Shown one piece after another: positions 9,152 to 12,324 of a DNA stretch of 32,698 nucleotides (its first letter is position 1; each line of letters starts with the position of its first letter). The notes beneath the pieces were generated by a model, which saw only the letters and a program-made list of their open reading frames with translations, made no database searches and was not told the origin of the DNA. The stretch comes from a virus. The stretch is taken from positions 1 to 32,698 of the IMG/VR virus record IMGVR_UViG_3300030419_004102. One strand, given 5' to 3'. Position numbers and translations under genes: made by a program.

Positions 9152-9275
9152 ACCTGATATAAAAAAACATAGAAACAGAACAATTTGTTTGTGTCAATAC
9201 ATAAGCACGCTTCCAATTGACGAGCAGGTTGCTATTTTAAAATTCTTAAAAAGAAAAGTGAGAAACAATGCTTAA
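9114..9275 (+). CDS. Small hypothetical basic protein overlapping yqaJ end
   Basis: The open frame extends upstream inside the YqaJ gene, but only the ATG at 9114 has a ribosome site (GAGGG, 7 bases away). This gives 53 residues, overlapping the YqaJ gene by 38 bases and the ParB-like gene by 8. It is basic (SFKPDIKKHRNRT) with a helix LPIDEQVAILKFLKRK and two cysteines in ICLCQY. The function is unknown. Overlap at both ends argues for a real, coupled gene. Confidence 0.62.
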   Translation: MFEFLIKILKSFKPDIKKHRNRTICLCQYISTLPIDEQVAILKFLKRKVRNNA

Positions 9276-9867
9276 AAATATTTCAAAAATAAAGCCCAAT
9301 CCTGACAACCCTCGAATAATTGAGGGGCATAAATTTAAACTACTTGTAAAAAGCATTCGGGATTTTCCTGAAATGTTGGAACTTCGTCCGATTGTAGTCG
9401 ATGAAAATATGCAGGTTTTAGGTGGTAATATGCGCCTAAAAGCCTGCAAAGAAGCGGGTTTAAAAAAGGTGCCAATCTCTATCGCTGAAGGTTTAAGCGA
9501 AGAGCAGAAAAAAGAATTTATCATTAAGGACAATGTAGGCTTTGGCGAGTGGGATTGGGAAATGCTAAATGCTGGATGGGATACTAAGAGCATCGGTGAG
9601 TGGGGGCTTGACTTACCTGTAATTAATGAAAAGCTTGAAGTTGAGCAAGGTTTAAAACCTGAAATAGAAGTCACACAAGAAGTATTGGAAGAACACAATT
9701 ACGTTGTTTTTACTTTTGACAACACTCTTGATTGGCAGGTTGTAAAAGAGTTTTTTAATATTGGTACTGTTATAAAGCCTAACTTTACAGAAACATATAA
9801 GCAAACTGGTGTTGGTCGGGTGAAGTCTGGACAAGAGCTTATAGAACTAATAAATCGGAGCAATTAA
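9268..9867 (+). CDS. ParB-like (ParB/sulfiredoxin fold) domain protein
   Basis: Residues 1-95 match the phage ParB N-terminal domain: ISKIKPNPDNPR (5-16), ELRPIVVDE (38-46), LGGNMR (51-56) and KKVPISIAEG. GGNMR is the conserved phosphate/nucleotide-contacting motif of this fold. In phages such domains are often fused to DNA methyltransferases or sit beside base-modifying enzymes; here the 199-residue protein has no methyltransferase motifs after the domain, only an uncharacterised part with YVVFTFDN. The next gene is a putative DNA glycosyltransferase. Nuclease, CTP-binding or kinase-like activities have been described or proposed for different ParB-fold proteins, so the activity cannot be set from sequence. 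Confidence 0.8.
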   Translation: MLKNISKIKPNPDNPRIIEGHKFKLLVKSIRDFPEMLELRPIVVDENMQVLGGNMRLKACKEAGLKKVPISIAEGLSEEQKKEFIIKDNVGFGEWDWEMLNAGWDTKSIGEWGLDLPVINEKLEVEQGLKPEIEVTQEVLEEHNYVVFTFDNTLDWQVVKEFFNIGTVIKPNFTETYKQTGVGRVKSGQELIELINRSN

Positions 9868-9869
9868 TA

Positions 9870-10586
9870 ATGAGCTTTAAGATATACATACCATCTAAAG
9901 GTAGGGTCGGTAAGGTTACAAGCCATAAACTGTTTAAAGACAGCATTATAGTGTGCCCAAAAGCAGAAGTGGATGGCTACAAGAAGCATCATAAGAACGT
10001 AATGGGTGTGCCAGATAATATTAAAGGAATAACCAAGACTAGGAACTGGATACTTAACAACATAGACGATGAATGGCATATACAGGTTGACGATGATGCT
10101 AAGAGCTTTCACACTTATGAAAAAGGAAAGTTAAAAACTTTTATAGACCCAGACAGAATACACAATATATTAGACAACCAATTTCATTTGTGTGATGGTT
10201 GGGGGCTTAAAGTCTGGGGCTTGTCTTTAGCCGCTGATTATAAGTTTTACAGGGAGTTTGCGCCATTTTCAACGCAAAGCGTTATAGGAGCCAACATAAT
10301 TGGAATTATAAAAAATCCGTTAAGGTTTGACGAAAGGCTAAAGGTTAAAGAAGATTACGATTACTCAATGCAACATATAGCTGAATATGGTGGTGCTTTA
10401 AGGTGTATGAAATATGGCATAGATGTTGTCCACTTAACTAATGCTGGTGGATGCGTGGCATATAGAACTAAAGAGGTTGAGCTAGATGCTTACGATGTTT
10501 TATTGAGAAAATGGGGCAACAAAATAGTAAAGATGCAAAATAACAAAAACTTTGTTAAAATGAAATCACCACGAAAAGGGATTTAA
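9870..10586 (+). CDS. Glycosyltransferase of TET/JBP-associated (TAGT) type
   Basis: The 238-residue product has a GT-A plan: N-terminal KIYIPSKGR (4-12), a strand SIIVCP, KGITKTRNWIL (52-62), the metal-binding WHIQVDDDAKSF with D74-D75-D76, and a second acidic block LKVKEDYDYS in the second half, then a strand IDVVHL and an Asn/Gly-rich loop. This order resembles the glycosyltransferases described with TET/JBP dioxygenases and modified DNA in phages. It could add sugar to a modified base or to a protein. No base hydroxylase or hydroxymethylase is recognised in the window, so the acceptor is unknown. It follows the ParB-like gene by 2 bases and precedes the terminase genes. Confidence 0.72.
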   Translation: MSFKIYIPSKGRVGKVTSHKLFKDSIIVCPKAEVDGYKKHHKNVMGVPDNIKGITKTRNWILNNIDDEWHIQVDDDAKSFHTYEKGKLKTFIDPDRIHNILDNQFHLCDGWGLKVWGLSLAADYKFYREFAPFSTQSVIGANIIGIIKNPLRFDERLKVKEDYDYSMQHIAEYGGALRCMKYGIDVVHLTNAGGCVAYRTKEVELDAYDVLLRKWGNKIVKMQNNKNFVKMKSPRKGI

Positions 10587-10587
10587 G

Positions 10588-10944
10588 TTGAACAAAACTG
10601 AACACAAAAAAAAGGAGCTGCTAAAGGCGCTAGAAAAGTCTTTAGGTGTGGTTACAACTGCAGTCAAGCAAGTTGGTATTGGAAGAGGCACTTTTTATTT
10701 GTGGCTGAAGCAAGACCCTGAGTTTAAAAAAGCGGTTGGAGACATTGAAGGGGTTGCTTTAGATTTTGTCGAGAGTCAACTGCATAGGCAAATAAGAGAT
10801 GGTAGTACAGCCGCTACTATCTTTTATTTAAAAACTAAGGGCAAATCTAGGGGTTACATTGAACGGCAAGAAATAGTCGGCGTAAAAGATCAGCCAGTTG
10901 AGATTAACGTAATTATAGGAGCAGACAAAGATGGGGATAACTAA
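10588..10944 (+). CDS. terS: Small terminase subunit (DNA packaging, HTH)
   Basis: The reading starts at TTG at 10588, one base after the preceding stop and 7 bases behind AAAAGGG; no ATG or GTG would keep the N-terminal HTH. The 118-residue protein has a helix-turn-helix in KSLGVVTTAVKQVGI and RGTFYLWLKQDPEF, followed by helices and the block TIFYLKTKGKSRGYIER, which is typical of phage small terminases and related packaging proteins. It would recognise phage DNA and load the large subunit two genes later. The short C-terminus is strand-rich and acidic. Confidence 0.8.
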   Translation: MNKTEHKKKELLKALEKSLGVVTTAVKQVGIGRGTFYLWLKQDPEFKKAVGDIEGVALDFVESQLHRQIRDGSTAATIFYLKTKGKSRGYIERQEIVGVKDQPVEINVIIGADKDGDN

Positions 10945-11158
10945 GCAGTTAATGATGGAAGAGGCTGACAAGCCTTTTGTTACTCAGACCTTAAGAGACT
11001 ATATAAACAGACCTAAGCTTTCTGACGTTGGTATTTTAAACTTAATTGCATCAGGCAGTTATAAGGCTTACAATTGCGATTCGTGTAATGGGTTAATGCC
11101 CGACCCAGACTTATCTGGCAGAGAAGTAACTGTCTGCTCCGATTGCTACCCAGATTGA
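10931..11158 (+). CDS. Small zinc-ribbon-like protein between terminase genes
   Basis: This 75-residue protein starts at an ATG 8 bases behind AGGAG and overlaps the small-terminase gene by 14 bases. Its C-terminus has two C-x-x-C pairs, NCDSCNG and VCSDCYPD, about 17 residues apart, which would bind one zinc ion as in zinc-ribbon or DksA/TraR-like fingers. The N-terminal half is helical (LMMEEADKPF, TLRDYINR). Its stop overlaps the probable TTG start of the large terminase. It may be a packaging cofactor or a transcription-related finger; I cannot tell which. Confidence 0.72.
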   Translation: MGITKQLMMEEADKPFVTQTLRDYINRPKLSDVGILNLIASGSYKAYNCDSCNGLMPDPDLSGREVTVCSDCYPD

Positions 11159-12324
11159 AAGTTAATTTACATCAACTAACCGCTACCAAGCCTCAAGTTG
11201 GGTTTTGGTCTAGCGATTCTAAATATCGTGCCTTTATTGGTGGGATCGGATCAGGGAAAACTTTTGCAGGGGCTATTGAAGTTTTAAGACAGCCTGCTAA
11301 ATCTGTTGGGGCTATTTTAGCTCCAACCTATTCAATGCTTAAAGATGCTACTTACAAAACAGTTGTAGACATCTGCGAAGATGCGAACATCATAAAGTCT
11401 TTAAATAGATCAGACATGACGCTAGAGCTTATCAATGGCTCATTAATTCTTTTTAGGACAGCTGATAACCCCGATAGGTTAAGAGGGCCAAACCTTGGTT
11501 GGTTTTGGTTGGACGAAGCAGGGATGATGAAGCCAGATGTATGGCTGATTATGCTTGGTCGTATCAGGCTAACACCAAGCAGGGCATGGGTTACTACAAC
11601 ACCGAAAGGTTTAAATTGGCTTTATGATTCATTTGTGAAGAATAAGACAAACAACCATCAATTGATTCAAAGCAGAACATCTGACAACACTTATTTGCCT
11701 GCGGATTTTATTGAGTCGGTAGCTGGACAATACACCACTCAATTTGCCAAGCAAGAGCTTGAGGGCGAGTTCATAGAAGACGATAGCAATCTCATTAAGC
11801 GAGAGTGGTGGAGATATTATAAAGAACTGCCAAAAGTTAAGCGATGGGTTTGGTCGTGGGATACCGCTTTTGAGGCAAACACAAGTGCTGACTATAGTGT
11901 TGGAACACTATGGGCTGAATGCGATAATGGTTATTATTTAACATATTTATACAGAAATAAACTAGAATTCCCTGATCTTAAAAAAACAGTAATAAATTTG
12001 TACCGAAAGCATCCATCTTCTATTATACTGATTGAGCAAAAAGCTTCTGGACATTCTCTATTACAGGAACTAAGAAGAGGTTCAGCTTTGCCCCTTAAGC
12101 CTATTAAGGTTGATAGGGATAAGATAACAAGAGTTAATGCTTGCTTGCCTTCTATCGAGTCGGGCAACGTTTATTTGCCTAGTGATGCAGACTGGCTTGT
12201 TGATTTTATAGACGAGTGCTCTATGTTTCCTAGCGGGAGAATGCATGACGATCAAGTTGATAGCATGACTCAGGCTTTAAATTATATGCGAGAAGCTACA
12301 AGCTACTCAATAGGATTTGTTTAA
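11155..12324 (+). CDS. terL: Large terminase subunit, ATPase/nuclease
   Basis: The motor and nuclease of DNA packaging. I favour the TTG at 11155, whose last two bases overlap the previous TGA (TTGA), giving 389 residues; a TTG at 11143 would add four. Neither has a ribosome site, so coupling is likely. Walker A GGIGSGKT is at 29-36, Walker B WFWLDEA at 116-122, the coupling TTTPKG at 147-152. The RNase H-like nuclease has D236 in WSWDTAFE, E294 in LIEQKASG and D365-D366-x-x-D369 in HDDQVDS. At this length it is a compact but complete TerL of the Terminase_6 type. Headful-type packaging would suit the lack of terminal repeats, but the class is not proven. Confidence 0.93.
   Translation: MKVNLHQLTATKPQVGFWSSDSKYRAFIGGIGSGKTFAGAIEVLRQPAKSVGAILAPTYSMLKDATYKTVVDICEDANIIKSLNRSDMTLELINGSLILFRTADNPDRLRGPNLGWFWLDEAGMMKPDVWLIMLGRIRLTPSRAWVTTTPKGLNWLYDSFVKNKTNNHQLIQSRTSDNTYLPADFIESVAGQYTTQFAKQELEGEFIEDDSNLIKREWWRYYKELPKVKRWVWSWDTAFEANTSADYSVGTLWAECDNGYYLTYLYRNKLEFPDLKKTVINLYRKHPSSIILIEQKASGHSLLQELRRGSALPLKPIKVDRDKITRVNACLPSIESGNVYLPSDADWLVDFIDECSMFPSGRMHDDQVDSMTQALNYMREATSYSIGFV

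Follow-up and report, generated by a model that had tools for sequence, protein, structure and literature searches.

Can a phage attach sugar to its DNA when it carries no recognised enzyme that prepares a base for this sugar? Two neighbouring genes in an IMG/VR virus record (IMGVR_UViG_3300030419_004102, positions 1-32,698) raise this question. We analysed the record over its whole length of 32,698 bases and refer to it as the window. The first gene encodes a ParB-like protein and the second a glycosyltransferase (Table 1). An earlier note on this DNA had described them as a candidate DNA-modification pair. Both reading frames lie exactly where that note had placed them, and its family calls hold: the Pfam matches are above the Pfam cut-off and the structure models have a ParB/Noc/Srx and a GT-A fold. 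The two proteins are thus members of the ParB/Srx superfamily and of the TAGT family (PF20691).

Table 1. Position of the gene pair, the ParB tail and the neighbouring terminase genes in the window, with the evidence for each.
Feature	Position	Strand	Evidence
ParB/Srx-fold protein (putative adapter), 199 aa	9268..9867	+	PF02195 (ParB_N) E 9.7e-7; ParB/Noc/Srx fold; tail alignment; tail-effector association
C-terminal tail of ParB, residues 128-199	9649..9864	+	alignment; tail HMM test
TAGT-family GT-A glycosyltransferase, 238 aa	9870..10586	+	PF20691 E 4.8e-14; phrog_842 E 1.4e-24; alignments; GT-A fold
Terminase small subunit (TerS)	10588..10944	+	phrog_4044 E 4.4e-7; 65% identity to TerS of the L006 phage
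Terminase large subunit (TerL), context	11143..12324	+	phrog_2 E 1.2e-46

Only two bases separate the ParB gene from the TAGT gene, and both lie in one operon with TerS. The TerS reading frame begins with a TTG start directly past the TAGT stop codon and is followed by TerL. The PHROG matches to TerS and TerL bear out the placement of the pair just before the packaging genes. For close pairs of sequences, dN/dS is about 0.02-0.07 in the ParB as well as in the TAGT gene (strong purifying selection). Hence, both proteins are in use.

The glycosyltransferase matches PF20691 over the whole domain (53.2 bits against a cut-off of 27.5), and its PHROG family is annotated as 'beta-glucosyl-HMC-alpha-glucosyltransferase'. 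In alignments that mix TET-linked and TET-less family members, R12, R58, DDD 74-76, D162 and G194 are invariant. The catalytic motifs are intact in members from bacterial and archaeal viruses. A sequence search of the PDB with the window TAGT gave no match. An AlphaFold model built from 19 sequences (pLDDT 65, pTM 0.69) has a GT-A fold; the model is of moderate quality, and its nearest PDB folds are GT2 enzymes, for example the teichoic-acid glycosyltransferases TarS and TarP (TM ~0.5). In a published comparison, phage TAGTs too are sister to GT2 (PMC13216743), and the nearest folds therefore do not tell a DNA acceptor from a protein or LPS acceptor.

The ParB protein consists of an N-domain (residues ~1-118) and an effector-specific tail (~128-199). 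It also matches phrog_498, 'DNA methyltransferase' (E 3.4e-24), and this match lies in the ParB part. In a structure model built from 35 sequences (pLDDT 74), the N-domain is mostly above 90 and the tail is poorly modelled. Foldseek finds ParB, Noc and KorB first, followed by sulfiredoxin and serine kinase. A role in partitioning (ParABS) can be rejected: only the N-domain matches, there are no HTH or C-terminal partition domains, the ParB/RepB/Spo0J models score far below the NCBIfam cut-offs, and Pfam and PHROG recognise no ParA-like gene among the window ORFs scanned. The pair is not a known defence system either, since the sole PADLOC match is to the ParB part of a methyltransferase model.

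What would prepare a base for the sugar? The earlier note had recognised no hydroxylase, hydroxymethylase or methyltransferase in this DNA, and every family search that we made agrees. Most window ORFs were scanned with Pfam and PHROG, and no hydroxylase or methyltransferase family was found. The scans showed only primase-polymerase, Sak4-like, YqaJ/RecE-like, RusA-like, PDDEXK, terminase and structural genes, and many small ORFs have no family assignment. Alpha- and beta-GT models had no match in the Pfam scans of the window ORFs. A six-frame search of the window and of a second phage record, L006, for Tet_JBP (PF12851), C5-methyltransferase (PF00145), thymidylate synthase (PF00303) and N6_N4_Mtase (PF01555) was empty. 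PF00303, the family of dCMP hydroxymethylase and thymidylate synthase, had no match in the window and seven related records. Of 26 further records, 25 lack Tet_JBP (the exception is Nonlabens phage P12024L, our TET-linked control), and this family was not found in the cultured examples phi jlb1, Javan291, Gina, HHTV-2, c5, NTR1 and E. coli 613R10. In the TAGT tree, where several branches are long and unsure, TET association and ParB association each change several times. Hence, the TET-less state is not the property of one odd lineage.

The L006 record shows which genes accompany the pair. It comprises 33,524 bases and has a 123-base direct terminal repeat, so the phage is apparently complete. 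Clear matches to the window are limited to ParB (66%), TAGT (78%) and TerS (65%). Beyond these, there is a partial TerL match of 23% identity and a weak partial match (25%) of one ORF in the tail region; by this comparison, the two phages are otherwise unrelated. Hence, the three genes travel between phages as a cassette, and no candidate for preparing a base goes along. The window TerS is 57-67% identical among many such cassettes (L005-L032); their TerLs are either unrelated to each other or share 20-28% identity. TerS therefore moves with the modification genes and not with its large subunit. ParB-TAGT is a mobile late cassette.

The cassette is widespread. Where their records extend far enough upstream, the relatives of the window TAGT are almost all immediately preceded by a ParB. 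A profile search widened the set of relatives to about 25-45% identity. We compared 71 distinct loci with a TET-less TAGT. In 62 of them, including two with a ParB-methyltransferase fusion, a ParB homologue lies at most 3.5 kb from the TAGT; a TerL-like gene is present in 50 of the 71 and a TerS-like gene in 30. The pair occurs in Lactobacillus phi jlb1, L. delbrueckii c5, Streptococcus Javan291, Microbacterium Gina, Porphyromonas 005b, haloarchaeal HHTV-2 and lambdoid phages of E. coli, as well as in uncultured phages. A scan of a genome collection for named bacterial hosts of the pair returned two MAG contigs only.

In E. coli, the pair belongs to the intact Rac-type prophage, where it lies between trkG and TerS (ON470590.1 20971-22645, L203, before TerS/TerL). 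About one in six complete E. coli genomes (885 of 5,426) holds at least 80% of it. Among the matches listed, K-12-type and BL21 records retain only 189-212 bases of ynaK, which adjoin ydaY in the K-12 types. This remnant is consistent with loss of the TAGT and structural genes through an internal deletion in Rac.

Some loci carry more than one TAGT: four consecutive TAGTs after a ParB (L174 3312-7127), two after a ParB (L167 1817-3866), and two ParB-TAGT pairs in tandem (L134 1767-4720). Such arrays suggest additions of several sugars. UDP-glucose dehydrogenase-like and/or NAD-epimerase-like genes adjoin the TAGT in L003 (8561-9361), L175, L179, L185 and L187, and a UDP-glucose dehydrogenase or sugar epimerase adjoins it in Gina. 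This suggests a dedicated sugar donor in Gina and some uncultured loci, possibly a uronic acid.

Does the position of the pair tell us about its function? A search with the window ParB found N-domains that are mostly 55-69% identical, largely in the same slot before the terminase genes and with differing effectors. The effector can be a fused DPPY amino-methyltransferase (N6_N4_Mtase), a C5-methyltransferase, Mom, a DpdA-like protein with QueD, an ABC-ATPase-GNAT protein, an FkbM-type methyltransferase with TET/JBP, a TAGT with TET/JBP (L169-L183) or a TAGT alone. Judged by these neighbourhoods, the window pair belongs to an exchangeable ParB-effector slot for DNA modification in phages, usually near TerS/TerL. 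The DNA-modification role suggested at the outset gains support, as the slot is filled elsewhere by methyltransferase, Mom, DpdA or TET genes.

Three observations on these genes deserve a remark of their own. The ABC-ATPase/GNAT partner of ParB (phrog_11143) occurs in L056 (5471-6541), L055 (3530-4611) and Leptospira phage LE3 (L191 3992-5092, annotated as GNAT only); it is a candidate for an undescribed modification enzyme. In L077 (1430-2885), an FkbM-type methyltransferase and TET/JBP come after ParB and there is no TAGT; these genes may carry out O-methylation of an oxidised base. The protein of L049 (6283-7077) matches phrog_6059, named 'queuine tRNA-ribosyltransferase', as opposed to TET/JBP in Pfam (PF12851, E 5.4e-10); from this match, the PHROG name looks wrong.

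Which part of ParB varies with the effector? In standalone ParBs, it is the C-terminal tail. An alignment of 35 window-type ParBs shows invariant tail positions F150, N152, D155, W156, G181, G183, R184 and G188. An HMM built from this tail matches 43 of 53 ParBs beside TET-less TAGTs (the remaining 10 lack this tail) and not one of the 62 ParBs that stand next to another effector; away from the training loci, it matches 21 of 30 ParBs beside TET-less TAGTs. By tail, a ParB and its nearest neighbour agree in effector class in 79 of 82 cases, compared to 57 of 82 by N-domain. When the ParBs of TET-less TAGTs are excluded, the numbers are 28 of 30 and 12 of 30, respectively. Because the sequences are related and the loci were collected with the window's own proteins, all these counts describe an association and not independent events. 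The L022 ParB has a divergent N-domain and the same tail as the window type. E. coli, phi jlb1, c5, HHTV-2 and NTR1 have in common a longer, different tail beside a longer TAGT subtype.

Across the loci compared, the tail of standalone ParBs thus tracks the partner effector. A natural reading of this association is docking of the cognate enzyme by the tail, which would replace the covalent fusion seen with methyltransferases. No natural ParB-TAGT fusion protein was found among the loci collected. In Nocardia phage NTR1, orf1 (L199 3-845, 5' of the TAGT) has no Pfam ParB match, yet its long C-terminal tail is that of the ParBs of E. coli, phi jlb1 and HHTV-2. By its alignment, the tail persists where the N-domain has been replaced or has become unrecognisable.

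From sequence comparisons, we infer that the window TAGT glycosylates a DNA base, and we consider it probable that the pair is a late DNA-glycosylation module. The ParB N-domain probably binds a nucleotide and DNA, as in ParB/Noc. The tail would dock the cognate TAGT, and ParB would thereby bring the enzyme to viral DNA late in infection, after replication and shortly before packaging. The TAGT, whose DDD motif is intact, would then take a sugar from a nucleotide-sugar of the host and attach it to the phage DNA, with no recognised precursor enzyme involved. This sugar would mask the phage DNA from restriction.

Which base would accept the sugar? The simplest answer is a canonical base, since this is what the other single-enzyme effectors of the slot (the methyltransferases and Mom) act on. 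We tentatively propose that ParB-TAGT glycosylates a canonical base directly, for example at the exocyclic amine of cytosine, adenine or guanine, without prior hydroxylation, and that phage ParBs are general adapters whose tails select among DNA-modifying effectors. To our knowledge, direct enzymatic glycosylation of an unmodified base has no precedent. The TAGT family itself argues against a canonical acceptor: it includes T6 enzymes that need pre-glucosylated hmC and TET-linked enzymes that need an oxidised base.

Alternatively, the TAGT may add its sugar to a base that was first hydroxylated or otherwise prepared by an unrecognised enzyme, encoded by the host or by a phage gene of unknown family. 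The earlier note had already considered such an enzyme among the small genes, and the many window ORFs without a family leave room for it. Characterised TAGTs do act downstream of another enzyme, as in T6 on glucosyl-hmC (PMC13216743), and TET/JBP stands beside the TAGT in P12024L and in the ParB-TAGT-TET cassettes. However, unrelated phages such as the window phage and L006 have only ParB, TAGT and TerS in common, and no other DNA-modification gene is common to the 71 TET-less TAGT loci, which apart from ParB and TAGT share only terminase and structural genes or small clade-specific sets. Tet_JBP is also absent from dozens of records, cultured phages included. Finally, we know of no hydroxylated DNA bases in E. 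coli, L. gasseri, Microbacterium or Haloarcula, which counts against a prepared base in these hosts. Hence, we regard a hidden preparing enzyme as unlikely.

The acceptor might also not be DNA. The TAGT could act on a cell-surface polymer or on a protein, be it ParB, terminase, capsid or a host factor; in that case, the pair would tune packaging or host takeover. The teichoic-acid and other GT2 enzymes among the closest solved folds fit this idea, and so does the tight linkage of the pair to TerS, which moves along. GREB1, a mammalian protein, is a TAGT relative; its acceptor is presumably a protein, and this kinship suggests that the TAGT fold can serve other acceptors. Nevertheless, the same ParB and the same slot are otherwise occupied by DNA-modification genes, and TET-linked TAGTs, which can have the ParB-TAGT arrangement too, keep identical catalytic residues. 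We therefore think a protein or polymer acceptor quite improbable. Very improbably, the pair leaves virion DNA without appreciable modification and either is silent in most hosts or acts on nothing but competing DNA or a site of packaging. Linkage to TerS and, circumstantially, the late position speak for this reading; strong purifying selection and catalytic motifs that are intact across bacterial and archaeal viruses speak against it.

A late glycosylation module would join two puzzles, the solitary TAGTs (PMC13216743) and the ParB domains beside phage DNA-modification enzymes (PMC12783734). In the loci compared here, solitary TAGTs of the window kind are usually paired with a ParB. If DNA is the substrate, then a widespread modification of E. 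coli phage DNA has gone unnoticed. If a canonical base is glycosylated directly, then haloarchaeal and bacterial viruses, along with about one in six E. coli genomes, would carry a DNA base modification of a new type. The question is tractable, because cultured viruses of lactic-acid bacteria, Microbacterium and haloarchaea have the pair, as do intact Rac-type prophages of E. coli; the K-12 and BL21 records listed, with their ParB remnant only, could serve as clean hosts. The mobility and wide occurrence of the pair, the exchange of effectors in the slot and the link between tail and effector go beyond the earlier note. A literature search for ParB together with a glycosyltransferase or ynaK gave nothing direct. 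Iyer et al. 2013, reportedly the paper that defined the TAGTs, may already mention ParB neighbours.

How does the pair compare to known systems? The closest are the TET/JBP-TAGT operons (P12024L gp26-gp27; L169-L183), which have the TAGT family, the catalytic residues and the phage setting in common with the window. Some of them also have a ParB directly upstream, but its tail differs from the window type, and the TET/JBP dioxygenase is absent from the window and from every ParB-TAGT-only record searched. The T6-type beta-glucosyl-HMC-alpha-glucosyltransferase belongs to the same Pfam/PHROG family and has a GT-A fold; it acts on glucosyl-hmC and adds a second glucose (PMC13216743). T6, however, makes hmC at the nucleotide level and adds alpha-glucose first, while the window has no thymidylate-synthase-family gene. 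Since TET/JBP and dCMP hydroxymethylase were searched for and not found, the window pair stands outside both the TET/JBP-TAGT and the T-even glucosyl-hmC systems. Solitary TAGTs occur in 288 of 753 phage genomes and were flagged as potential novel transferases in a 2026 paper (PMC13216743).

On the ParB side, the ParB-DNA methyltransferase fusions (phrog_498 type) have an N-domain 55-69% identical to that of the window and sit in the same slot before TerS/TerL, but their effector is a fused amino-methyltransferase instead of a separate TAGT, and they have no tail. CmoX, which makes 5-carboxymethylcytosine, is a phage DNA-modifying enzyme that also stands beside a ParB_N protein, whose role was stated as unknown (PMC12783734). 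Unlike the TAGT, CmoX is a carboxymethyltransferase with a dedicated cofactor gene (CmoA), and the main text of that paper mentions no glycosyltransferase. DpdB of the bacterial Dpd systems is a ParB-like ATPase that takes part in Dpd modification (PMC12839542) and, like the window ParB, is the partner of a DNA-base-modifying enzyme. Yet the enzyme that DpdB serves is a transglycosylase, and its setting is a defence cluster, whereas the partner of the window ParB is a GT-A enzyme in the late operon of a phage.
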